From: Sphaerisporangium krabiense
GTDB taxonomy: Bacteria > Actinomycetota > Actinomycetes > Streptosporangiales > Streptosporangiaceae
Direction: 5' to 3'
DNA length: 64,000 nt
NCBI RefSeq assembly: GCF_014200435.1
Contig: NZ_JACHBR010000001.1
Span: 6,142,001 to 6,206,000 of the forward strand
Part shown: in pieces, positions 21,825-32,998 of the stretch
Numbering within the stretch: position 1 is the first letter of the stretch
Layout: each line of letters starts with the position of its first letter
Notes under the pieces: generated by a model
Told to the model about the DNA's origin: nothing
The model's database searches: none
What the model saw: the letters and a program-made list of their open reading frames with translations, nothing else
Translations under genes and position numbers: made by a program

Positions 21825-22202
21825 TCAGCGCGGCGGCGTGGCGGGCTCGTCCGGGGGGCGGGCCGCCAGGCGGGCGGTGAACAGGTGGTTCTTGTCCAGG
21901 CGGCTGCCGGGGACGCGCCCGCGGCCCCAGCCGATCTGGTCGCGGTACCGGCCGAGCGCGCCGGACTCCGCCAGCGCCGCCTCGTCGGTGTACGGCGAGC
22001 CGGGCGGGGCGGGGCCGGAGAAGGGCGCGACGAACAGCGCGTCGGCCGGGCAGTGCGCCTCGCACATGAAGCAGGTCTGGCAGTCCTGCTGCCGGGCGAT
22101 GACCGGCAGGCCGTCCCCGCCGGTCTCGAACACATCCATCGGGCACACCTTCAGGCAGATGTCGCATCTCACGCAGCGCTCGGCGCTCACGACCTCGATC
22201 AC
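21825..22202 (-). CDS. Dicluster [4Fe-4S] ferredoxin, copy A, with flavoprotein-binding-type tail
   Basis: 125 residues. Residues 8-60 carry two C-x2-C-x2-C-x3-C-P sets (CVRCDICLKVCP and CQTCFMCEAHCP), hence two [4Fe-4S] clusters. The remaining half is a tail with GSPYTDE, LGRYRDQIGWGRGRVPGS, closely matched in the second copy (24750-25094), so it is functional rather than spacer. The GTG start overlaps the flavoprotein stop as GTGA. The layout resembles the beta subunit of adenylylsulfate reductase, whose tail wraps around its flavoprotein partner. Likely role: electron transfer to or from the flavoprotein encoded just upstream. Confidence 0.85.
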   Translation of the reverse strand: MIEVVSAERCVRCDICLKVCPMDVFETGGDGLPVIARQQDCQTCFMCEAHCPADALFVAPFSGPAPPGSPYTDEAALAESGALGRYRDQIGWGRGRVPGSRLDKNHLFTARLAARPPDEPATPPR

Positions 22203-23773
22203 GCGGCGGCCTCCTCGGGCGCGGTCCACACCTCGTCCAGGCCCCCGGCACGGATGCGGTGGGTCAGGCGGGGGTCGGGGGCGGGCAGGTCCTCGCGCTG
22301 GTGCATGCCGCGCGACTCGGCGCGGGCCAGCGCCGCCCGGTACATCCAGCGCGCGTGGGCGACCATGGCCGCGGCCTGCCGGGCGCGCAGGGCGTCGCGT
22401 CCCTCGCCGGAGAGGTGGGTGGCGACGTGCCGCCACAGGCCGTCGAGGGTGTCCAGCGAGCGCCGCAGGCCCTCGGCGGTGCGGAAGTAGTTGCGCTCCA
22501 GCGGCAGCACCTCCTGCTGCACGGCCGCCACCACCTCGGCGGCGTCCGGCGCGCCCGGCGGCCCCGACGGGCGTAGCCCCGCGCCGCCCGCGGGCGCCGC
22601 CGAGGTGGGACGGCCGCGGGCCGCGTGCGCGGCGGCGGCGGCGCCGGCCCAGGTGCCCGAGGAGATGGCCCAGGCGCCGTTGTGGCTGCCCCCGCCGCTC
22701 ACCGCGCCGGTGATGAGCTCGCGTGTGGCCACGTCGCCCGCCGCGAACAGACCGGGCACGGTGGTGGCGCACCCCTCGCCGGTGACGCGCAGCCCTCCGG
22801 TGCCGCGGACCGTGCCCTCCAAGACCATGCGGACGGGGTAGGCCTGCGTGAACGGGTCGATCCCCGCCTTGTCCAGGGGGAGGAAGTAGTTGGGCTGGGC
22901 CTGGCGCATCGCCGCGCGCAGCTCGGGCGGCGCCTGGTCCAGGCGAGCGTGTACGGGCCGGCCGTCCGCCAGCAGCCGGGCGATCGGGCGCCTGGCCATG
23001 CCGCCGACCTCCAGCGCGCGGCCGTCCTCGTCGTAGTAGGTGGCGAACTGCATCATCAGGCCCTTGGTGTGCGACCCGTAGGCGGGGGAGAGCGCGTAGG
23101 CGTTGGAGAACTCCATGCCCGACAGCTCGGCCCCCAGCTCGGCGGCCATCAGGTGGCCGTCCCCGGTGTCCACGTTGAGGCCGAACGCCCCGGAGAGGAA
23201 CGCGCACCCGCCGGTGGCCAGCACCACCGCCCCGGCCCGCACCTCCCACGGCGCGCAGCCGAGCTGGCGGCGGATCCCGGCGGCGCCGCCCGCGGCGCCC
23301 TCCGGCGTGACCAGCAGCTCCAGGGCCGGGTGGTGGTCGAGGATCCGCACGCCGGAGCGGTGCGCCCTCCTGCGCATCCGGCGCATGTACTCCGGGCCCT
23401 GCAGGCTGCCGCGCCGCTCGACGCCGTCCTCGTCCTCGGGGAAGGGGTACCCCCAGTCGGCGAGCCGGTTGACCTGCCGGTAGGTCTCGTCCAGGACGCG
23501 GGCCATCCACCGCCGGTCGGTCAGGTGGCCGGCGAGCGTCTCGCGCGCGGCGATCGCGGCCTCGCGGCGGGCCGGGTCGGGCGGCAGGTACCACAGGTTG
23601 TTGCCGCCGGAGGCCGCCGAGCCGCTGGTGCCGCAGTACCCCTTGTCGGCGAGCACGACCTCGGCCCCGGCCTCGGCGGCGGCCACGGCGGCCCATGCCC
23701 CCGCGGGCCCGCCGCCGATGACCAGCACGTCGGCCTCGGCCACGAGCGCGCCGCCGGGGGAGGGGCGGCTCAT
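22199..23773 (-). CDS. AprA/fumarate-reductase-like FAD flavoprotein, copy A
   Basis: 524 residues. The N-terminal dinucleotide fold has VLVIGGGPAGAWAA (about 16-29) and LADKGYCGTSG, and the FAD domain continues with VVLATGGCAFLS. The second FAD motif is VPGLFAAGDVATRE, and GGGSHNGAWAISSGTWAG resembles the AprA/FrdA family. A helical C-terminal domain ends with SRGMHQREDLPAPDP, similar to the R-G-x-H-x-R-x-D block of AprA and SdhA. The substrate residues do not settle which compound is reduced or oxidised. It shares 4-bp overlaps with genes on both sides. It is a paralogue of 25091-26731. Confidence 0.85.
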   Translation of the reverse strand: MSRPSPGGALVAEADVLVIGGGPAGAWAAVAAAEAGAEVVLADKGYCGTSGSAASGGNNLWYLPPDPARREAAIAARETLAGHLTDRRWMARVLDETYRQVNRLADWGYPFPEDEDGVERRGSLQGPEYMRRMRRRAHRSGVRILDHHPALELLVTPEGAAGGAAGIRRQLGCAPWEVRAGAVVLATGGCAFLSGAFGLNVDTGDGHLMAAELGAELSGMEFSNAYALSPAYGSHTKGLMMQFATYYDEDGRALEVGGMARRPIARLLADGRPVHARLDQAPPELRAAMRQAQPNYFLPLDKAGIDPFTQAYPVRMVLEGTVRGTGGLRVTGEGCATTVPGLFAAGDVATRELITGAVSGGGSHNGAWAISSGTWAGAAAAAHAARGRPTSAAPAGGAGLRPSGPPGAPDAAEVVAAVQQEVLPLERNYFRTAEGLRRSLDTLDGLWRHVATHLSGEGRDALRARQAAAMVAHARWMYRAALARAESRGMHQREDLPAPDPRLTHRIRAGGLDEVWTAPEEAAA

Positions 23774-24753
23774 CGGCGCGCCCCGGGGGCGATCCAGTCG
23801 TCGATGGCGAAGTCCTTCTTGACGAAGGCCTGCTGGACCAGGAACTTCTTGGTGTTCTCCAGCAGCGTCAGCCCCTGCGGGGTGAACGGCTGCTCGGGAA
23901 GCTGGCTCGCGAGCGTCGTCTTCCTGGTCACCTCGGCGGGGAAGCCGCCGACCTTCTCCGCGAACGCCAGGTAGCCCTGCCAGTCGGCCTTGGCCTGCCG
24001 GGTGCCCTCCGCCTGGGCCGCCTGCCAGGCGGGCACCAGGCCGGCGTGGTCCTTCAGGAACGCCTCGGGCACGACGGTCGCGCTGGTGCCGAGGTAGGCC
24101 GGGTGGTCTTCCGAGGCCACGTCGATCACGGGGTAGCCCTTGCTCCTGAGCAGCTCCAGGTTGGCGGCGGGCACGGCCGCCGCGTCCACGTCCCCGCGCT
24201 CCAGGGCCGCCTCGACGTCGGTGTTGTAGATGTGGACGATCTCGGCGGGCCTGACGCCGAGGTCGCCGAGGGCGCCGAGCAGGTACCGGTGGATGTAGGA
24301 GCCCTTCTGCGTGGCGACCTTCCGGCCGGCCAGCCCGGCCAGGGACGTGGGGCCGCCCTGCTTCTTGGTCACCACCCCGGCGTCGATGCCGACCGTGCTC
24401 TGCGCGATGAGCCGGGTGGGCTGCCCGGCGCCCCGTGCCACCAGGGCCGGGGTGTCGCCGTAGGAGGCGACGTCCAGCTCTCCGGCGACGAGGGCCTGGT
24501 TGAGGTCCGGGCCGTTGGGGAAGGAGTAGACCTCGATCTTCCGCACGCCCGCCCCGGTGAGCAGGGGCAGCAGCTTGCCCTTGTCCTGCAGGTAGCCGAA
24601 CACGCCGGTCAGCTTGTTGCCGCTGCCGATGACGCCGATGCGCAGGGTGTAGCCGGACGAGGCCGCCGCGCCGTCGCCCGCCCCGGCCTGCCCGCACGCG
24701 CTCAGGGCCAGCACGGCGGCCAGCAGCACGGGCAGTGTCCGCCGGGCGCTCAT
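23770..24753 (-). CDS. ABC transporter substrate-binding lipoprotein (SsuA/TauA/NrtA-like)
   Basis: 327 residues with a lipoprotein signal (LALSACGQ, Cys21). A periplasmic-binding-protein type 2 fold then starts YTLRIGVIGSGNKLTGVFGYLQDKG in two stretches. NGPDLNQALVAGELDVASYGDTPAL is the typical sulfonate/nitrate-binding pattern. It belongs with the permease and ATPase at 26728-28396. Its position inside the oxidoreductase genes, overlapping both neighbours by ATGA, ties the imported compound to the redox chemistry. By family the ligand could be a sulfonate, sulfate ester or other small anion. Confidence 0.85.
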   Translation of the reverse strand: MSARRTLPVLLAAVLALSACGQAGAGDGAAASSGYTLRIGVIGSGNKLTGVFGYLQDKGKLLPLLTGAGVRKIEVYSFPNGPDLNQALVAGELDVASYGDTPALVARGAGQPTRLIAQSTVGIDAGVVTKKQGGPTSLAGLAGRKVATQKGSYIHRYLLGALGDLGVRPAEIVHIYNTDVEAALERGDVDAAAVPAANLELLRSKGYPVIDVASEDHPAYLGTSATVVPEAFLKDHAGLVPAWQAAQAEGTRQAKADWQGYLAFAEKVGGFPAEVTRKTTLASQLPEQPFTPQGLTLLENTKKFLVQQAFVKKDFAIDDWIAPGARR

Positions 24754-25094
24754 CGGGCGCCGCCCCTCGGCAGCTCCGGCCCGACGGCCCGCACGGCTCC
24801 GGGAGTGCGGCCGTGTCCCCATCCGATCTCCTTCCGATAGCTTCCGAGCAGTCCCGTCGCCGCCAGGTGCCCCTCGTCCCGCAGCGGCGACCCGGCGGGG
24901 GCCGGCGAGGTCTGCGGCGCCACGAACAGCGCGTCCACCGGGCAGTACGCCTCGCACATGAAGCAGGTCTGGCAGTCGTCCAGGCGCGCGATCACCGGGA
25001 CGCCGTCCCGGCCGCGGTCGAACACGTCGGTGGGGCACACCTCGACGCAGCGGTCGCACGCGACGCAGCGGTCCCGCGACACGATCTCGATCAT
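24750..25094 (-). CDS. Dicluster [4Fe-4S] ferredoxin, copy B
   Basis: 114 residues. Two cluster motifs, CVACDRCVEVCP and CQTCFMCEAYCP, fill the first 60 residues. The tail GSPLRDEGHLAATGLLGSY, KEIGWGHGRTPG parallels copy A. ATG 25094 overlaps the stop of flavoprotein B, and its own stop overlaps the start of the lipoprotein gene. It most likely forms a complex with flavoprotein B in the cytoplasm, as AprB does with AprA. Confidence 0.85.
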   Translation of the reverse strand: MIEIVSRDRCVACDRCVEVCPTDVFDRGRDGVPVIARLDDCQTCFMCEAYCPVDALFVAPQTSPAPAGSPLRDEGHLAATGLLGSYRKEIGWGHGRTPGAVRAVGPELPRGGAR

Positions 25095-26731
25095 GAGGCG
25101 GCCCTCGCGACGTCGCGGGCCAGGGCGGCGTACTCCAGCGGGCCGACCGGGGCCACCGGGTCGGGACGCACGTGGATCTCGTCCAGCCCGCCCACCAGGA
25201 GCCGGTGCCGCAGGGCCGGGTCGGCGGCGGGGTGGTCCTGCCGCTTGTGCATGCCGCGGGTCTCCGGCCTGGCCAGCGCGGCGGTGTACATCCAGCGGGC
25301 GTGCGCGGTCATCGCCGCCGCCTGCCGGGCCCGCACCCCGTCCGCGCCGTCCGCGCGCAGCGAGGAGCGCAGCCGCGCCCAGGTACCGTGCAGCGACGCC
25401 AGCGCGGGCGCGAGCCGGTCCCCGTGCCGCAGGTAGTTCTTGTCGTAGGGGTGGACCTCGGCCTGGACGGCCGCGACCACCTCCCGGTACTCCTCCGCGC
25501 CGCCCGCGGAGCCGGTGGGGCGCAGGCCCGCGCCGCCGGCCGCGGTGAGGGGCCGCCGCGTGGCCGCGGGGCCGAGGGAGGCCGCGTGCCGGGCCGCGCC
25601 GCGCCCCGCCCACGTGCCCGACGAGATCGCCCAGGCCGCGTTGTGGCTGCCGCCGCCGGTGAAGCCGCCGCAGATCAGCTCCCGCGTCGCCGCGTCCCCC
25701 GCCACGTACAGGCCCGGGACGGTGGTCGCGCAGTCGTCGCCGGAGACGCGGACGCCGCCGGTGCCGCGCACGGTGCCCTCGAGCAGCAGGGTGACGGGGA
25801 AGCGCTGGGTGAACGGGTCGACGCCCATCCGGTCGAACGGCAGGAAGAAGTTGGGCTGCCCGAGCCGCATCGCCGTGCGCGTGGCCTCGTCGGCGCGGTC
25901 CAGGCGGCAGTACACCTTGCCGGTCAGCAGCTCGCGGGCGATCACCGAACGGCCCTTCTGGCTGCCCGCGCCCTCCAGCACCGTGTCGTCCTCGCGGTAG
26001 AACGTCGCGAACGCGTAGTAGGCGGTCTTGGTGACCGAGGAGAACTCGGGCGCGATCGCGTAGGCGTTGGAGAACTCCATGCCGGACATCTCCGCGCCCA
26101 CCTCGGCGGCCATCAGGGCCCCGTCGCCGGTGTTGACGTCGCAGCCGAGCGCCCGGCTGAGGAACGCGCAGCCCCCCGTGGCGATGACGACGGCGCCCGC
26201 GGCGACCGTGAACGGCAGGTCCTGCCTGCGCCGGTGGCCCGCCGCGCCCGCGACCGCGCCGCCGGGGTCGGTGAGCAGCTCGGTGACCGGGCTGTGGTCC
26301 AGGATCCGCACACCGGCGCGGCGCAGCAGGATGCGCATGCGCCGCATGTACTCCGGCCCCTGCACCCCGCGCCGCAGCGGCGTGCCGTCGTCGCGCACCG
26401 GGAACGGGTACCGCCCGACGACGGCCAGCTCGTCGACGCCCTCGTAGGTCTGGTCCAGGACGCGCGTCATCCAGCGCCGGTCGGCCAGGTGGCCGCCGAG
26501 GCCCTCCCGGCCGGCCATCGCCTCCTCCCGCGCGGCGGGGGCGGGCGGCACGTACCACACGCCCGTGCCCGCGGAGGCGGTCGCGCCGCTGGTCCCGCAG
26601 TAGCCCTTGTCGGCGAGGACGACGTCGGCGCCCGCCTGCGCGGCCTTGTAGGCGGCCCAGGCCGCGGCGGGGCCGCCGCCGACGACCAGGACGCCCGCCG
26701 TGAGCCGCAGCGTCTCCCGGGGTGTGCTCAT
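25091..26731 (-). CDS. AprA/fumarate-reductase-like FAD flavoprotein, copy B
   Basis: 546 residues. Landmarks are LVVGGGPAAAWAAYKAA (about 15-31), LADKGYCGTSG, QGPEYMRRMR, VVIATGGCAFLS, SGMEFSNAYA, LEGTVRGTGGVRV and VPGLYVAGDAATRE, with the C-terminal ETRGMHKRQDHPAADP. The order of blocks is identical to copy A, so the two arose by duplication. The central substrate region differs (TKTAYYAFATFYRED here, TKGLMMQFATYYDED in A). That suggests two related substrates or two sequential steps. It starts within the stop of the ATPase gene. Confidence 0.85.
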   Translation of the reverse strand: MSTPRETLRLTAGVLVVGGGPAAAWAAYKAAQAGADVVLADKGYCGTSGATASAGTGVWYVPPAPAAREEAMAGREGLGGHLADRRWMTRVLDQTYEGVDELAVVGRYPFPVRDDGTPLRRGVQGPEYMRRMRILLRRAGVRILDHSPVTELLTDPGGAVAGAAGHRRRQDLPFTVAAGAVVIATGGCAFLSRALGCDVNTGDGALMAAEVGAEMSGMEFSNAYAIAPEFSSVTKTAYYAFATFYREDDTVLEGAGSQKGRSVIARELLTGKVYCRLDRADEATRTAMRLGQPNFFLPFDRMGVDPFTQRFPVTLLLEGTVRGTGGVRVSGDDCATTVPGLYVAGDAATRELICGGFTGGGSHNAAWAISSGTWAGRGAARHAASLGPAATRRPLTAAGGAGLRPTGSAGGAEEYREVVAAVQAEVHPYDKNYLRHGDRLAPALASLHGTWARLRSSLRADGADGVRARQAAAMTAHARWMYTAALARPETRGMHKRQDHPAADPALRHRLLVGGLDEIHVRPDPVAPVGPLEYAALARDVARAAS

Positions 26732-27507
26732 GAAAGCTCCTCAGCTTGCTCTTCGTGTCCGAGGTCGGGGTTCACGCCGAGGCCGAGGAGCAGCCGGCGG
26801 CGCAGGGTCGCGAACCGGGGGTGGTCCAGCGAGCGGGGCCGGGGGATGTCGATGACGAACTCCTCGGCGACCTTCCCGTCCGCCAGCAGCAGGGCGCGGT
26901 CGGCGAGCAGCAGCGCCTCCTCGACGTCGTGGGTCACCAGCAGGACGGCGGGGCGGTGCTGGGTCCACAGGCGCGCGACGAGGGCCTGGGCCTTCAGCCG
27001 GGTGAGCGCGTCCAGGGCGCCGAAGGGCTCGTCGAGCAGCAGCAGCTCCGGGGTGCGCACCAGCGCGCGCGCCAGGGCCACGCGCTGGGACTCCCCGCCG
27101 GACAGGGTGGTCGGCCAGGCGTCGGCGCGGGCGGCCAGGCCGACCTCGGTCAGCGCCTCCAGCGCCCGCGCGCGCAGGCCGGGGCCCGACAGGCCGAGCG
27201 TGACGTTGCGCCACACCTTGGACCACGGCAGCAGGCGGTGCTCCTGGAAGACGATGGCCCGCCGCTCCGGCACGTCCAGGCCGCCCTCGGCGTGCGGGTC
27301 GAGCCGGGCCACGGCGCGCAGCAGCGTGCTCTTGCCCGAGCCGCTCGCGCCGAGCAGCGCGACGAACTCGCCGGGGGCGATGTCCAGGTCCACCGCGTCG
27401 AGCACGACGCGCCCGGAGAACGCGCGGCGCAGGCCGCGCACGCGCACACCGTGCCCGGCGAAGGAGACGGCGGGGGGCGGCGCGGCCGTGGCGCCGTGGG
27501 CGGTCAT
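26728..27507 (-). CDS. ABC transporter ATPase (SsuB/TauB-like)
   Basis: 259 residues with all ABC ATPase landmarks: Walker A GASGSGKST (about 52-60), Q-loop VFQEHRLLPW, signature LSGGESQRVALARAL, Walker B LLLLDEPFGALD and H-loop VTHDVEEA. Q-E-H-R-L-L-P-W is characteristic of the sulfonate/nitrate/taurine uptake group. It powers the permease encoded immediately upstream. Its stop overlaps the start of flavoprotein B (ATGA), so transporter and oxidoreductase genes are translated together. Its start overlaps a 13-codon reading frame that bridges the gap to the permease. Confidence 0.9.
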   Translation of the reverse strand: MTAHGATAAPPPAVSFAGHGVRVRGLRRAFSGRVVLDAVDLDIAPGEFVALLGASGSGKSTLLRAVARLDPHAEGGLDVPERRAIVFQEHRLLPWSKVWRNVTLGLSGPGLRARALEALTEVGLAARADAWPTTLSGGESQRVALARALVRTPELLLLDEPFGALDALTRLKAQALVARLWTQHRPAVLLVTHDVEEALLLADRALLLADGKVAEEFVIDIPRPRSLDHPRFATLRRRLLLGLGVNPDLGHEEQAEELS

Positions 27508-27545
27508 GCGGCGGCCTCGCGGGCGGCGGTCATGGGGCGGCTCAT
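27504..27545 (-). CDS. 13-codon bridging ORF between permease and ATPase genes
   Basis: The frame MSRPMTAAREAAA starts in an ATGA overlap with the permease stop and ends in another ATGA overlap with the ATPase start. It exactly fills the only gap in an operon where the other junctions are 4-bp overlaps. It may serve only to carry ribosomes across by re-initiation. A functional peptide is unlikely. Confidence 0.4.
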   Translation of the reverse strand: MSRPMTAAREAAA

Positions 27546-28396
27546 TTCGCGGTGAAGCCCCGGCGCCAGGCCAGGGCGTGGCGTTCGAGGACGCGGACGA
27601 GCAGGTCGGTGGCCAGCCCGAGCAGGGCGTACACGGCGAGGACGACGAACACGACGTCGGTGCGCAGGAACTCCTTGGCGTCGGTGACCAGGAAGCCGAT
27701 CCCGGCGGTCGTCGCGGTCTGCTCGGCGACGACCAGGCTGAGCCAGCCGATGCCGAGCGCCTGCCGGAGGCCGACGAGGATCTGCGGCAGCGCGCCGGGC
27801 AGGATGACCCGGCGGATCAGGGCGAACCCCTTGACCCCGCAGGAGCGCGCCGACTCCACGAACCGCTCGTCCACGCTCCTGATGCCGTGGAAGACGTTGA
27901 CGTACAGCGGGAAGATCGGGCCGATCGTGATCAGCGCGATCTTCGAGGTCTCGCCGATGCCGAACCAGATGATGAACACCGGCACGAGCGCGAGGTGGGG
28001 GAGCATCCGCAGGGCCTGGACGGGGGCGTCGATGACGTCCTCGAACAGGCGGACCAGGCCCGCGGCCAGGCCGAGGACGAGCCCCGCGCCGAGGCCGAGC
28101 GCGAGGCCCTTGGCCACCCTGCCGAGCGACACGGCGAGGTGGTGCTGCAGCTCGCCGGTGCCGATCAGGTCGAGCGCCGCCTCCCACACCCGGGTCGGCG
28201 GCGGCGTCGTCGAGCCGAGCCAGCCGCTGGAGGCGCCGATCTGCCAGAGGACCAGGATCGCCGCGAGGCCGGCGAGCCTGCGCGCCCGGGCGGTGAGCCG
28301 GGCGAGGACCCCGGCGATCGGGGATCGCGCGGCGCGTGCCGGGGGATCGCCGGGGATCTCCAGGGACGCGGGGGCGTTCAGGACCGGTGAAGTCAT
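27542..28396 (-). CDS. ABC transporter permease (SsuC/TauC-like)
   Basis: 284 residues with about six TM helices. It contains the EAA-type loop, here SARSCGVKGFALIRRVILPGALPQI in two blocks (about 180-205), typical of sulfonate/nitrate permeases, and APVQALRMLPHLALVPVF before it. A soluble N-terminus of about 30 residues precedes TM1. ATG 28396 has AAGGAG nine bases upstream. It is the first full-length gene of an operon that runs leftwards to 21825. Confidence 0.9.
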   Translation of the reverse strand: MTSPVLNAPASLEIPGDPPARAARSPIAGVLARLTARARRLAGLAAILVLWQIGASSGWLGSTTPPPTRVWEAALDLIGTGELQHHLAVSLGRVAKGLALGLGAGLVLGLAAGLVRLFEDVIDAPVQALRMLPHLALVPVFIIWFGIGETSKIALITIGPIFPLYVNVFHGIRSVDERFVESARSCGVKGFALIRRVILPGALPQILVGLRQALGIGWLSLVVAEQTATTAGIGFLVTDAKEFLRTDVVFVVLAVYALLGLATDLLVRVLERHALAWRRGFTAK

Positions 28397-28697: not shown

Positions 28698-30182
28698 TCA
28701 GCGTGCCAGGGTGATGAGCCGGTGGACGGCCGGGGGCGGGACGGCGGGGCGGTGCGCCGAGGGGGTGGGATGGCCGATCGGGCGGCGGGCGGGCTGCGCC
28801 GCGGCGGTCCAGCACAGCGCGCCGGCGGTGACCGCCGCGGCCGCCGCCACCCACCCGAGCGTGCGCCCGATCCGCAGCCCGTACCCACAGGCCAGCCAGT
28901 ACAGCGACAGCAGCAGCCTCGCCCTGCCCGGCGGGCTCGCCAGCCGCCGCATCTCCATGGCGCCGAAGCGGAAGTCCGCCGAGGTCCGCGCGTCGTCCAC
29001 CGCCGGGCGCAGCCGCTCGTACAGGACGGCCAGGCGTCCCGGATCCGCGGCCCGCTCACCGGTCAGGGACCAGCCCCGCCAGGCGTGCTCGTCCGCCAGC
29101 ACCCGCCGCCTCGTCCACCACCGGATCGGCGGCCAGCGCAGGCCGAGCCGCACCCCCGGCGGCGTGCGCGCGAACAGGCAGCCCGACAGCCGCAGGCCCT
29201 CGGGACGGCGCAGCCCGCCGAGGCCGCACGCGCGCAGGTCCACGCCGGTCAGCGTGAGCGCGGGCGCGTCCAGGCGGTCCAGGGAGATGACGCGCAGCCG
29301 TCCCGCGTGCCGGGTCAGCGCCGCGGGACCCGCCAGCGCCGCGTCCCGCAGGTCCACGTCGGCGTCCGACAGGCGCGCGGCGAACCGCCCGCCGAAGTCG
29401 GCCGCGCGCAGGTCCACCCCGCAGCCGCCCGTGTCCACGCTCAGCGCCGCGAACGCGCGCGCCTCGGTCAGCGACAGCCGCCGTCCGACGCGCATCGGCC
29501 CGAGGTAGGCGGGGCCGTGGAACCGTACCCCCTCGAACCCCGCCGTCCCCCCGCAGGCGGCCGCGCGCAGCGACAGCGCCCTGCGGAAGCGCGCGCCGCG
29601 GAAGATGGCGTCGCCGTCGAAGGTGGTGCCGTCGAACGCCGCGAACCCGTGGAACTCCGCGCCGCGGAACGAGGCGTCCCTGCCGAACCGGGCCTCCCCG
29701 AACAGCGCGTCGCTGCCGAAGTGGGCGCGGTCGAAGGCGCCGTGGCCGCGCACCCGTGATCCGTGCATCGTGAACTCGCGGCGGAAGCGCGCCTCGCCGA
29801 AGGACACGTTGCGCGTGAAACGGGTCCCGAAGAACGAGGCCAGCCGGTCGAACCGCGCGCTGTCGAACGTCGCGTCGCCGGTGAAGACGACCTCGCCGAA
29901 GCGCGCGGGGCCGGTGAAGAGGGCACGGTCGAACCGCGCCCTGCCGAGACGGTGCTGCACGGCGTCGAGCACCCGGGTGAGCAGGTCCTCGTCGAGCGAC
30001 GTGCCGCGCAGGTCCACGCCCTGGCCGGGGGCCAGGCCGCGTAAGACCTCCTCCACCTCGGCGGGGGCGAGATGGGCCAGGCAGCGCGCGTACGGGCCGG
30101 CGGCGACGCCCACGCACTGCGGCGAGGCGTCGCACGTCCTCCATTCGACATCGAGGGGGATGATTTTCAGCGGGGATCCCAT
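28698..30182 (-). CDS. Pentapeptide-repeat protein with C-terminal membrane anchor
   Basis: 494 residues. After a Cys-containing N-terminus (WRTCDASPQCVGVAAGPYARCLAH) there is a long run of A(D/N)LxF-like repeats (about 90-330, for example ARFDRALFTG, ATFDSARFDR, ASFRGAEFHG). It is rich in Phe at the core position and would form a right-handed quadrilateral beta-helix. Near residue 430 comes DFRFGAMEMRRL, a block that precedes membrane segments in a common actinobacterial family. One or two TM helices follow (about 430-475). The three-Cys N-terminus could bind metal. Start ATG 30182 has no strong ribosome-binding site. The function is unknown. Confidence 0.7.
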   Translation of the reverse strand: MGSPLKIIPLDVEWRTCDASPQCVGVAAGPYARCLAHLAPAEVEEVLRGLAPGQGVDLRGTSLDEDLLTRVLDAVQHRLGRARFDRALFTGPARFGEVVFTGDATFDSARFDRLASFFGTRFTRNVSFGEARFRREFTMHGSRVRGHGAFDRAHFGSDALFGEARFGRDASFRGAEFHGFAAFDGTTFDGDAIFRGARFRRALSLRAAACGGTAGFEGVRFHGPAYLGPMRVGRRLSLTEARAFAALSVDTGGCGVDLRAADFGGRFAARLSDADVDLRDAALAGPAALTRHAGRLRVISLDRLDAPALTLTGVDLRACGLGGLRRPEGLRLSGCLFARTPPGVRLGLRWPPIRWWTRRRVLADEHAWRGWSLTGERAADPGRLAVLYERLRPAVDDARTSADFRFGAMEMRRLASPPGRARLLLSLYWLACGYGLRIGRTLGWVAAAAAVTAGALCWTAAAQPARRPIGHPTPSAHRPAVPPPAVHRLITLAR

Positions 30183-30390
30183 GGCAAACTCATACCCAAT
30201 GTCAGGCAACGGGTAGCTAAATCGTGATGGAATGGTGACACACGGTCGCCGATGATTCCGTTGACCCTGGTCGGAACCCCACAAGGGGACGGCTCGTCAC
30301 TCCACATCCAGTGTCAAGATTCTCCCTTTTCACCTTCTATATAGGTCTAGTACGAGATAGAGCGAGTTATCGCGCTTACGCTGCCGGATC

Positions 30391-32823
30391 ATGCGTGCTC
30401 TATCCCGGGCGCTCGCCGCCCTAGCCGCCGCCGGCGTGGCCATCGCCGGTGCCGTCGTCCTCGCCACGTCCCCGGCCGCCGCGGAACCGGGGACCGTCGT
30501 GATCAGCCAGGTGTACGGAGGTGGCGGGAACTCCGGCGCCCCGCTCACCAACGACTTCGTGGAACTGTTCAACCGCAGCGGTTCCGCCGTCCCCCTCGAC
30601 GGCTGGTCCCTGCAGTACGCCAGCGCCACCGGCACGGGGAACTTCGCCGCCAACAAGCTGAACCTCGCCGGTTCGCTGGCCCCCGGCCAGTACCACCTGG
30701 TGCAGCTCGCCGCGGGCACGACGCCGTCCGGATCCCTGCCCGCCCCCGACGCGACCGGCACGCTCAACCTGAGCGGCACCGCCGGCAAGGTGGCGCTGGT
30801 CCGCTCGCCCGACGGCCTGGCCTGCAACGGCGGCTCGGCCCCCTGTTCGGCCGAGCAGCGGGCGCTGGTCGCCGACCTGGTCGGATACGGCACGGCCAAC
30901 TTCTCCGAGGGCACGCCCGCCCCGGCGCTGACCAACGCGACCGCGGGCCTGCGCGGCGAGCACGGGTGCGCCGACACCGACGACAACGCCGCCGACTTCA
31001 CCACCGGCGCCCCCGCGCCGCGCAACTCGGCCACCACGCCCGCCCCCTGCGGCGCCGAGCCGACGCCGTCCCCGACGCCGACCGGCAGCCCGACCCCGAC
31101 GGACTCGCCGACCCCCACGGACTCGCCCACCCCGACGGTGACGCCGACGCCCACGCCGACCGAGACCCCGACGCCGACCCCCAGCCCCACGGGCGCGCCG
31201 TGCGAGCTCCCCGCCACCCACCAGATCGCCCAGATCCAGGGTGACGGCGCCGCCAGCCCCCTCGCCGGCGCCGCCGTCCGCGTCGAGGGCGTCGTCACCG
31301 GCGACTACCAGGGCGCCGGCCAGTTCGGCGGGTTCTACATCCAGGATCCGACCCCTGACGCCGACCCCGCCACCTCCGACGGCCTCTTCGTGTTCACCAC
31401 CAGGCCCGCCGCGACCGGTGACCGCGTCCTGGTCAGCGGCACCGTCACCGAGTTCAACGGCCTCACCGAGCTGTCCCCGGTCACCGCCGTCGACGTCTGC
31501 GGCGCCGGCACGGTCAAGCCCGCCAAGGTGAGGCTGCCGATCGCGGAGGGCGCGAGCCTCGAACCGCTGGAGGGCGTGCTCGTCACCTTCCCCGAGAAGC
31601 TCACCGTCTCCGAGGTCTACAACCTCGGGCGCTTCGGCGAGATCACCCTGTCCTCCGAGGGGCGGCTGTTCCAGCCCACCGACCGCGAGGGCGTGGACCC
31701 GTCCCTGAACGCGCGCCGCACGATCCTGCTCGACGACGGCTCCAACACGCAGAACCCGCCCACGCTGCCGTACCACACCGCGGGCTCGAACACCGTGCGC
31801 GTCGGTGACACGACCACCGCGCTCACCGGCGTCCTCACCTACGGCTTCAACGTCTACCGCGTCCAGCCGGCCCTGCCCGTCGCCTTCCAGGCCGACAACC
31901 CCCGCCCGGCCAAGCCGGAGAAGGTCGGCGGCGACGTCCGGGTGGCGAGCCTCAACACCCTCAACTGGTTCACGACGCTGAACAAGCGCGGCGCCAACAC
32001 CGCCGAGGAGCGCGCCCGCCAGCTCGCCAAGCTCGTCGCCACCCTGCGCGGCCTCGACCCCGACGTGGCCGGGCTCATGGAGGTCGAGAACAACGGCGCC
32101 ACCGCGCTGAACACCCTGGTCGACGCCCTCAACGCCGAGGTCGGCGCGGGCACCTACAAGGGCGTCGTCGCCCCCTACACCGGCACGGACGAGATCCAGG
32201 TCGCGCTCATCTACAAGCCCGCCGTGGTCAAGCCCATCGGCCTCCCCGCCTCCTCCGGCGACCCGGTGTTCCGCCGTCCGCCGCTGATCCAGCAGTTCCA
32301 GCGGGCCAAGGGCGGCGACGGCACCTCGTTCACGCTGATCGTCAACCACTTCAAGTCCAAGGGCTGCGACGGCGCCACCGGCCCCGACCAGGACCAGGGC
32401 GACGGCCAGAGCTGTTTCAACGCCGAGCGCGTCCGCCAGGCCCAGGCCGTCCTCGGCCTCGTCGACACCTACAACCTGCCCAACCCCGTCGTGCTGGGCG
32501 ACCTCAACGCCTACGGCGAGGAGGACCCGATCCACACCCTTGAGGACGGCAAGCTGGTCAGCGTCAGCAAGAAGTTCCTCACCAAGAAGGACCGCTACAG
32601 CTACGTCTTCGGCGGCCTCTCCGGCGAACTCGACCACGTCCTGGTGGGCAAGAAGCTCCTCAAGCTCGTCACCGGCGCCACCATCTGGCACATCAACGCC
32701 GACGAGGGCAGATTCCTCGACTACAACACCGAGTTCAACCCCCCGTACCTCTACTCCCCGGAAGCCTTCCGCTCCTCCGACCACGACCCCCTCCTCTTCG
32801 GCCTGGACCTGAAGAAGAACTGA
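30391..32823 (+). CDS. Secreted ExeM/NucH-type endonuclease with lamin-tail domain
   Basis: 810 residues. A signal peptide (1-31) is followed by a lamin-tail domain (about 34-190, VVISQVYGGGGNSGAPLTNDFVELFN in two blocks). A Pro/Thr-rich linker with TPTPTDSP-type repeats (about 220-270) leads to an OB-like domain (about 275-400), then an endonuclease/exonuclease/phosphatase domain (about 505-805). The catalytic blocks are VASLNTLNWF, GLMEVENNG, VNHFKSKGCD, VLGDLNAYGEEDP and the terminal SSDHDPLLF. This matches extracellular Mg-dependent nucleases that degrade DNA for nutrients or biofilm turnover. It is transcribed alone and ends at a strong terminator. Confidence 0.9.
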   Translation: MRALSRALAALAAAGVAIAGAVVLATSPAAAEPGTVVISQVYGGGGNSGAPLTNDFVELFNRSGSAVPLDGWSLQYASATGTGNFAANKLNLAGSLAPGQYHLVQLAAGTTPSGSLPAPDATGTLNLSGTAGKVALVRSPDGLACNGGSAPCSAEQRALVADLVGYGTANFSEGTPAPALTNATAGLRGEHGCADTDDNAADFTTGAPAPRNSATTPAPCGAEPTPSPTPTGSPTPTDSPTPTDSPTPTVTPTPTPTETPTPTPSPTGAPCELPATHQIAQIQGDGAASPLAGAAVRVEGVVTGDYQGAGQFGGFYIQDPTPDADPATSDGLFVFTTRPAATGDRVLVSGTVTEFNGLTELSPVTAVDVCGAGTVKPAKVRLPIAEGASLEPLEGVLVTFPEKLTVSEVYNLGRFGEITLSSEGRLFQPTDREGVDPSLNARRTILLDDGSNTQNPPTLPYHTAGSNTVRVGDTTTALTGVLTYGFNVYRVQPALPVAFQADNPRPAKPEKVGGDVRVASLNTLNWFTTLNKRGANTAEERARQLAKLVATLRGLDPDVAGLMEVENNGATALNTLVDALNAEVGAGTYKGVVAPYTGTDEIQVALIYKPAVVKPIGLPASSGDPVFRRPPLIQQFQRAKGGDGTSFTLIVNHFKSKGCDGATGPDQDQGDGQSCFNAERVRQAQAVLGLVDTYNLPNPVVLGDLNAYGEEDPIHTLEDGKLVSVSKKFLTKKDRYSYVFGGLSGELDHVLVGKKLLKLVTGATIWHINADEGRFLDYNTEFNPPYLYSPEAFRSSDHDPLLFGLDLKKN

Positions 32824-32838
32824 CCCCGCCAGACGAAG

Positions 32839-32860
32839 GACCCCGGCCCCGGCCGGGGTC
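32839..32860 (+). terminator. Rho-independent terminator of the nuclease gene
   Basis: The 10-bp stem GACCCCGGCC/GGCCGGGGTC with a CC loop is followed by TTTCTCGTT, 15 bp after the stop codon. Confidence 0.85.
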
Positions 32861-32998
32861 TTTCTCGTTCACCGCGCCGTGCGCGGGTACGGCGGGCGGT
32901 GTGGGGCGGTGGCCTGCCGTGCAGGCGGGATGTAAGCGGGTTGTAAGGGGGCGTCCCTAGCGTGGTCCTCGTTCGAAGATCACAAGGAAAGGCACATA

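Follow-up and report, generated by a model that had tools for sequence, protein, structure and literature searches.

Why would a single bacterial operon encode two flavoprotein-ferredoxin pairs around one importer, and what could two such enzymes do with the imported compound? The question is raised by a 64,000-nucleotide stretch of the Sphaerisporangium krabiense genome (contig NZ_JACHBR010000001.1, positions 6,142,001 to 6,206,000; hereafter the window), in which the open reading frames (ORFs) display seven minus-strand genes from position 28396 down to 21825 in the order SsuC-SsuB-FlaA-FdA-SBP-FlaB-FdB, SBP being a substrate-binding protein. Five of the six junctions are 4-bp overlaps and the sole exception, SsuC/SsuB, is a 34-bp gap. 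An earlier reading of the letters alone (the sequence-only reading) had described one operon with duplicated flavoprotein-ferredoxin pairs around a binding lipoprotein and a 4-bp overlap at every junction but one, and the ORF layout agrees with it on both points. The answer favoured here, to which we give about an even chance, is that the operon scavenges an organosulfur anion, probably a sulfonate, by means of two enzymes that carry out different redox steps or act on different substrates.

The two flavoproteins, FlaA (26731-25091, 546 aa) and FlaB (23773-22199, 524 aa), were both over the Pfam cut-offs for general flavin adenine dinucleotide (FAD) models, FAD_binding_2 among them, and for Succ_DH_flav_C. 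They are 60% identical over 529 aligned positions. The divergent central regions claimed for them earlier are real in a weak sense only: identity is lowest in FlaB 241-280 (48%) and 401-440 (50%), but every full 40-residue block falls within 48-72%. The two ferredoxins, FdA (25094-24750, 114 aa; Fer4 models over cut-off) and FdB (22202-21825, 125 aa with a GTG start; Fer4_10 and other Fer4 models over cut-off), are 67% identical over 100 aligned positions. Each carries eight Cys as two [4Fe-4S] motifs of the form C-x2-C-x2-C-x3-C-P, invariant in all 12 aligned homologues, and the C-terminal tails are alike (12/18 identical, alignment columns 81-98). Residues 1-60 of FdA and FdB are devoid of Trp; an invariant Trp (FdB W92) sits in the tail, and the electron-relay Trp-B48 of AprAB is located next to cluster I. 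The Fla subunits presumably bind FAD, and FlaA would pair with FdA and FlaB with FdB.

That the two copies are non-interchangeable enzymes, as had been proposed, is borne out by phylogeny. In a quick tree of 124 rows, from which L036 and L050 were omitted as duplicates of L095 and L035, FlaA and FlaB fell into separate clades of 23 rows (Shimodaira-Hasegawa (SH) support 99) and 40 rows (SH 95); a second tree, built with more care from 48 rows, separated them again, into clades of 12 and 11 rows (100/99 each). Some genomes contained a member of the FlaA clade or of the FlaB clade alone. A different state at a level of at least 80% in each clade was found at 24 positions, including 58-60, 235, 238, 302, 315 and 355, in a comparison that left out L041_1930, an ORF apparently frameshifted. 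FlaA is of the Thr238 type (FlaB numbering) and FlaB of the Gly238 type (N58 N59, G238, R315), and all 25 two-copy loci examined, L041_1930 being counted here, pair Thr238 with Gly238 or Ser238. The partner of the Thr238 copy was Gly in 20 loci (17 Actinomycetota including the window, 2 Nostoc and 1 Paenibacillus) and Ser in 5 Bradyrhizobium loci. Single-copy loci had T in 43 cases, G in 27 and N in 1. These counts refer to copies within the retrieved stretches, some genomes having further copies elsewhere, and the two-copy loci are mostly kin, so that the independent cases number about four (Actinomycetota, Nostoc, Paenibacillus and Bradyrhizobium). The gene order also varied, being ATPase-permease-permease-Fla-Fd-SBP-Fla-Fd in Paenibacillus and Fla-Fd-SBP-Fla in some Nostoc. 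Since the Gly copies of Nostoc lie within a cyanobacterial clade and the Ser copies of Bradyrhizobium in a distant clade of both trees, the pairing of Thr238 with Gly/Ser238 seems to have arisen more than once. FlaA and FlaB are probably not spare copies of one another; one being of the Thr238 type and the other of the Gly238 type, they may differ in their substrates or catalyse successive steps.

How widespread is this arrangement? A close family member was present in 4 of the 100 genomes searched as relatives, this genome among the four, and in none of 10 genomes of the same genus, and 19 of 394 genomes drawn from the class, this one included, matched at E<=1e-80. At least 588 stretches of genome contigs encode a Fla relative (E<=1e-3), and 60 plasmid records had a family match. 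The carriers include many Actinomycetota, Bradyrhizobium and other Alphaproteobacteria, Cupriavidus, Paraburkholderia, a Moraxellaceae metagenome-assembled genome (MAG), Nostocales and Paenibacillus; the Fla-Fd family spans several bacterial phyla. Among the 80 loci sampled for their neighbourhoods, the best of the at least 588 stretches, a ferredoxin gene lay at most 250 bp downstream of Fla in 78, the exceptions being L089 and L109. The search for the same gene order in other genomes, which had been proposed with the sequence-only reading, gave the exact seven-gene order in 13 of 89 loci, corresponding to 12 distinct ones (L035 and L050 are from the same contig), and the arrangement is thereby more than chance. 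Its carriers are Nonomuraea, Spongiactinospora, five Actinomadura, two Streptomyces, Dactylosporangium and two MAGs; in two Amycolatopsis loci the gene set is the same but differently ordered. The duplicated pair, once taken for the most distinctive feature of the window, is not unique to it, given a widespread family and two-copy loci in about four lineages.

Divergent Fla and ferredoxin family members were also noticed in L066, L071, L075, L078, L092 (Bradyrhizobium), L129 (S. meliloti pSymB), L130, L133 and L134, several of them adjoined by ATP-binding cassette (ABC) importers. On Paracoccus aminophilus pAMI5 (L133:7459-9479) the ferredoxin gene comes first and the flavoprotein gene second, the opposite of the usual order. 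A Fla match in two pieces, with no gene listed, is located between importer and ferredoxin genes on a Bradyrhizobium guangxiense plasmid (L128:9001-10541); it is alike in seven Bradyrhizobium plasmids and is possibly a broken copy.

To which enzymes, then, are FlaA and FlaB related? The AlphaFold2 model of FlaB had a mean predicted local distance difference test score (pLDDT) of 88.8 and a predicted template modelling score (pTM) of 0.92. In a Foldseek search with this model E. coli FrdA was the best match and FrdA/SdhA chains led the list, with the Methanothermococcus 3′-phosphoadenylylsulfate (PAPS) reductase ranked 26th and Archaeoglobus AprA 37th. The match to the AprA chain 1jnr_A (E 7.2e-22, template modelling score 0.71 by query length) places FlaB in the fumarate-reductase fold. 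The profile of the flavoprotein family spans the full length of the PAPS reductase alpha subunit (8a8o), and the ferredoxin profile matches the beta subunit. As judged from the model and the profiles, FlaA and FlaB belong at the level of the fold to the SdhA/FrdA/AprA/NadB group. Neither of them reached a specific NCBIfam cut-off. The best NCBIfam match of both was the L-aspartate oxidase (NadB) model, with 75.5 and 93.7 bits against a cut-off of 639; the AprA-type model NF005331 gave 25.5 and 44.3 bits against 557, and TIGR02061 was absent from the 25 NCBIfam matches listed for either flavoprotein. The AprAB-like layout of a flavoprotein with a two-[4Fe-4S] subunit, as first proposed, is thus upheld by the cofactor motifs and by the fold search, which puts FlaB in the SdhA/AprA superfamily. 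A special kinship to AprA is not, FrdA being the best Foldseek match and AprA ranking only 37th, with sulfate-contacting residues that have no identical counterpart.

The AprAB active site was compared by sequence, in an alignment comprising 27 proteins of the family, six of AprA and three of the HEAT type, in which the AprA residues were placed by aligning an AprA with chain 2fja, whose numbering fits. According to PMC2211403, Asn74, Trp234, Arg265 and His398 are the AprA residues touching the sulfate of adenylylsulfate (APS). None of the four is kept in FlaA or FlaB: Asn74, Trp234 and Arg265 face gaps and His398 faces Thr321. Residues 58-60 of Fla, which discriminate the two clades, lie in the loop that bears Asn74 in AprA. 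CysH and CysD were both found over cut-off in the same genome, the CysH being ordinary. If Fla-Fd were to reduce APS or PAPS for assimilation, or to run in reverse from sulfite to APS, it would have a counterpart in Methanothermococcus, where an AprAB-type heterotetramer serves assimilation as PAPS reductase according to PMC10322725. The two-subunit layout is alike, and the profile matches to both subunits and the Foldseek rank point the same way. The active-site residues and the presence of CysH and CysD speak against this identity, which was rejected on these grounds, and a sulfonate-type importer would be ill-suited to a nucleotide substrate; we regard it as highly improbable. FlaA and FlaB are built like AprAB and, by the tests made on their sequences, are not APS reductases.

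Five functional residues of E. coli FrdA were considered, among them the covalent-FAD His and a substrate His and Arg. By HMMER alignment to 1kf6 the covalent-FAD His, one substrate His and one substrate Arg face G51, E319 and G360, and the remaining two positions fall outside the aligned blocks. Membership of the fumarate reductases or aspartate oxidases was rejected on scores far below cut-offs together with these unkept residues. The Fla-Fd pairs could instead be dehydrogenases that, in the manner of SdhA or NadB, oxidise a C-H or C-N bond beside the sulfonate and pass electrons out via the ferredoxin subunit. Succinate dehydrogenase and L-aspartate oxidase are members of the superfamily, the highest NCBIfam scores, although all far under cut-off, come from NadB- and FrdA-type models, and FrdA/SdhA chains top the fold search. 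The loss of the three residues that could be checked counts against dicarboxylates as substrates, not against dehydrogenation as such, and we consider this explanation unlikely. R134, R351 and W368 were found in 121/121 family sequences, as was Lys or Arg at position 237; R323 and N365 each occurred in 120/121 and E352 in 119/121. The flavoprotein set omits one ORF shorter than 480 aa (L089) and matches below 300 bits, including the second copy in L105. An anionic substrate would fit with these conserved basic positions, and R134, K/R237, R323 and R351 may bind the anion.

What is imported is suggested by the three remaining genes. The SsuC-like ABC permease (28396-27542, 284 aa) is over the cut-off for BPD_transp_1 in Pfam and has SsuC as its best NCBIfam match (237.9 bits, cut-off 347). 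The SsuB-like ATPase (27507-26728, 259 aa) is over the cut-off for ABC_tran, with the aliphatic-sulfonate ATPase as its best NCBIfam match (245.3 bits, cut-off 395). The SsuA-like binding lipoprotein (24753-23770, 327 aa) is over the cut-off for NMT1 in Pfam and scored 111.7 bits with SsuA_fam (cut-off 163.5). In a Foldseek search with the AlphaFold2 model of the lipoprotein (pLDDT 92.2) ranks 1-8 were all SsuA or TauA, including 2x26, 3ksx, 3ksj, 6ssy, 3e4r and 3uif, followed below rank 8 by DszB and Thi5-type proteins. The binding protein thus has an SsuA-type fold, and the assignment of an SsuABC-type importer in the sequence-only reading is supported by these matches.

The genes adjoining the relatives point to sulfur as well. 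They were counted in the 80 loci and in 40 control stretches from seven genomes at round-number positions, with queries taken from the window and from plasmid loci only, outside the 80. SsuA-like binding proteins were present in 63/80 loci and 0/40 controls, SsuC in 61/80 and 2/40, and SsuB in 70/80 and 8/40. Among organosulfur and sulfur-assimilation genes, NtaA/DmoA-type monooxygenases were detected in 33/80 loci, MetQ in 18, SfnB in 17 and TauD in 15, all against 0/40 controls, and MetY in 16/80 against 1/40. Any of these five was found in 41/80 loci compared to 1/40 controls; many of the loci are close kin (19 of the 41 from Bradyrhizobium or Bradyrhizobiaceae and 10 from Nostocales), so that Fisher values computed on the loci overstate independence. 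When some of the queries came from the test loci themselves, which favours them, the numbers were 72/80 against 0/40 for SsuA-like proteins and 43/80 against 1/40 for any of six sulfur enzymes; SfnG-like genes, several queries again being from the test loci, were seen in 25/80 against 0/40. In 30 genomes with such loci (approximately 251 Mb) the genome-wide background was 895 NtaA/DmoA and 516 SsuA-family matches, or about 0.07 and 0.04 per 20 kb. Of 16 plasmid regions inspected two were unannotated, and 8 of the 14 others had SfnB, MetNIQ, a transsulfuration-type pyridoxal phosphate enzyme, TauD, CysDN or a luciferase-like monooxygenase.

The monooxygenases could also mean that the Fla-Fd pairs do no more than supply electrons to flavin mononucleotide (FMN)-dependent NtaA/DmoA-type enzymes, which would perform the desulfurisation. 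There is a 4-bp overlap between the monooxygenase gene and Fla in two Frankia loci, two Streptomyces loci and a Sphingobium plasmid, and the monooxygenase gene is divergently placed in Bradyrhizobium, Shinella and one Nostoc. The contiguous seven-gene operons, however, contain no monooxygenase gene, the Fla fold is a substrate-converting one, and the two distinct sequence types would be left unexplained. A role in electron supply is improbable in our estimation.

Several observations weigh against the scavenging of organosulfur anions. The binding protein, the ATPase and the permease are all under the NCBIfam sulfonate cut-offs, and Thi5, PqqT and thiamin-binding proteins occur further down the Foldseek list of the binding protein. 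The FlaB model is poor (pLDDT <50) at residues 50-56 and 195-201, beside the discriminating loop. None of the five sulfur genes was found in 39/80 loci, including 15/15 Mycobacteriaceae loci and 9/12 seven-gene loci, a sulfur gene being near only L044, L046 and L054 among the latter, and 6/14 annotated plasmid regions were without a sulfur-acquisition or organosulfur monooxygenase gene. In the window itself, inspection of the 18-33 kb ORFs by eye revealed no sulfur enzyme, the flanks having had no family scan, and an NtaA/DmoA match occurred nowhere. The operon might accordingly serve a sulfur-free anion or a vitamin precursor taken up via an NMT1/SsuA-type binding protein, NMT1 being a broad superfamily and most seven-gene loci having no sulfur enzyme nearby. 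That all of the first eight Foldseek matches are SsuA or TauA, and that sulfur genes are enriched across the family, make such a substrate rather improbable. The link to sulfur compounds, proposed from the sequence, is in sum positive for the family, near whose members organosulfur genes are enriched, and would be weaker for the exact seven-gene operon (3/12).

Under the organosulfur reading, the SsuA-like lipoprotein and SsuBC would import a small anion containing sulfur, a sulfonate or a compound like it being most likely. FlaA with FdA and FlaB with FdB, in which the large subunit would bind FAD and the small one two [4Fe-4S] clusters, would then perform one or more redox steps by which the sulfur of the anion becomes assimilable. 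Electrons may flow from a cellular ferredoxin via the Fd subunit and FAD to the substrate; the reductive direction is preferred, since small subunits of this kind supply electrons to the flavin in AprA-type enzymes. The sulfur substrate, its sulfonate class and the electron flow are all putative at this stage. More tentatively, and with doubt prevailing, the operon may represent an undescribed organosulfur assimilation in which a sulfonate-like anion is processed without oxygenases by Thr238 and Gly/Ser238 AprAB-like enzymes acting as a set, a pairing that would have come together more than once. One such route would cleave the C-S bond through two two-electron reductions in succession. Members of the SdhA/AprA superfamily with FAD and two [4Fe-4S] clusters are already known as a kind. 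No description of the family's residue set, importer link or recurring pairing was found in a search limited to open-access literature, so that its absence is weak evidence.

Organic compounds account for much of the sulfur in soil, and the aerobic routes known for sulfonate sulfur use oxygenases such as SsuD and TauD. Fla-Fd enzymes, encoded next to sulfonate-type importers in several phyla, could be a further enzyme class for this step, and the T238/G238 pairing makes the division of labour between the two enzymes directly testable. The family also calls for caution, as an aprAB-like layout without the APS site could mislead annotation when genes are named by resemblance.

Around the operon, the upstream neighbour (28698-30284, minus strand) has by eye the appearance of a pentapeptide-repeat-type protein, no family search being involved. 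No gathering-level Rfam match was found in six relatives, and between 15 and 35 kb of the window there were only two sub-gathering matches, sot2652 and BjrC68 (32811-32887, E 0.15-0.18), most likely due to chance. Nothing matched in the phage collection as to phage origin, FlaB having one weak PHROG of function not known, and PADLOC gave no defence-system match for FlaA, FlaB or the binding protein.

Among the closest known systems, one is a second operon of the same genome. At approximately 305.4-309.8 kb of contig C1 (L038:7417-11750) an SsuB-similar ORF, with an SsuC-like match just before it, is followed by a 953-aa AprA-like flavoprotein of the PRK13800 HEAT-repeat type. The 4-bp overlap of an AprA-like flavoprotein gene with an SsuB-similar ORF is shared with the operon studied here, but the PRK13800 protein is much longer, only about 27-29% identical to FlaB and in a separate clade, and its relatives in L013 and L014 have kept Asn at the AprA N74 position, unlike Fla. 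In another genome (G041) a PRK13800-like flavoprotein and a Fla family member are on the same contig (L036). With SsuABC/TauABC and SsuD/TauD the operon shares the importer type, and organosulfur monooxygenases adjoin part of the relatives; it differs in having two flavin/Fe-S enzymes in place of a monooxygenase and a transporter under the sulfonate cut-offs. SdhA, FrdA and NadB have the same overall fold and give the best Foldseek matches, whereas the Fla partner is a ferredoxin with two [4Fe-4S] clusters and the three functional residues that could be checked are not kept. AprAB and the PAPS reductase of Methanothermococcus thermolithotrophicus (8A8O) likewise combine an FAD-containing alpha subunit, which has the fumarate-reductase fold, with a small beta subunit in which there are two [4Fe-4S] clusters. 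From these, the Fla proteins are set apart by the sulfate-contacting residues that the alignment does not retain, by an identity of 17-20% in the Foldseek alignments, by scores far under the NCBIfam AprA-type cut-off and by their link to an importer.

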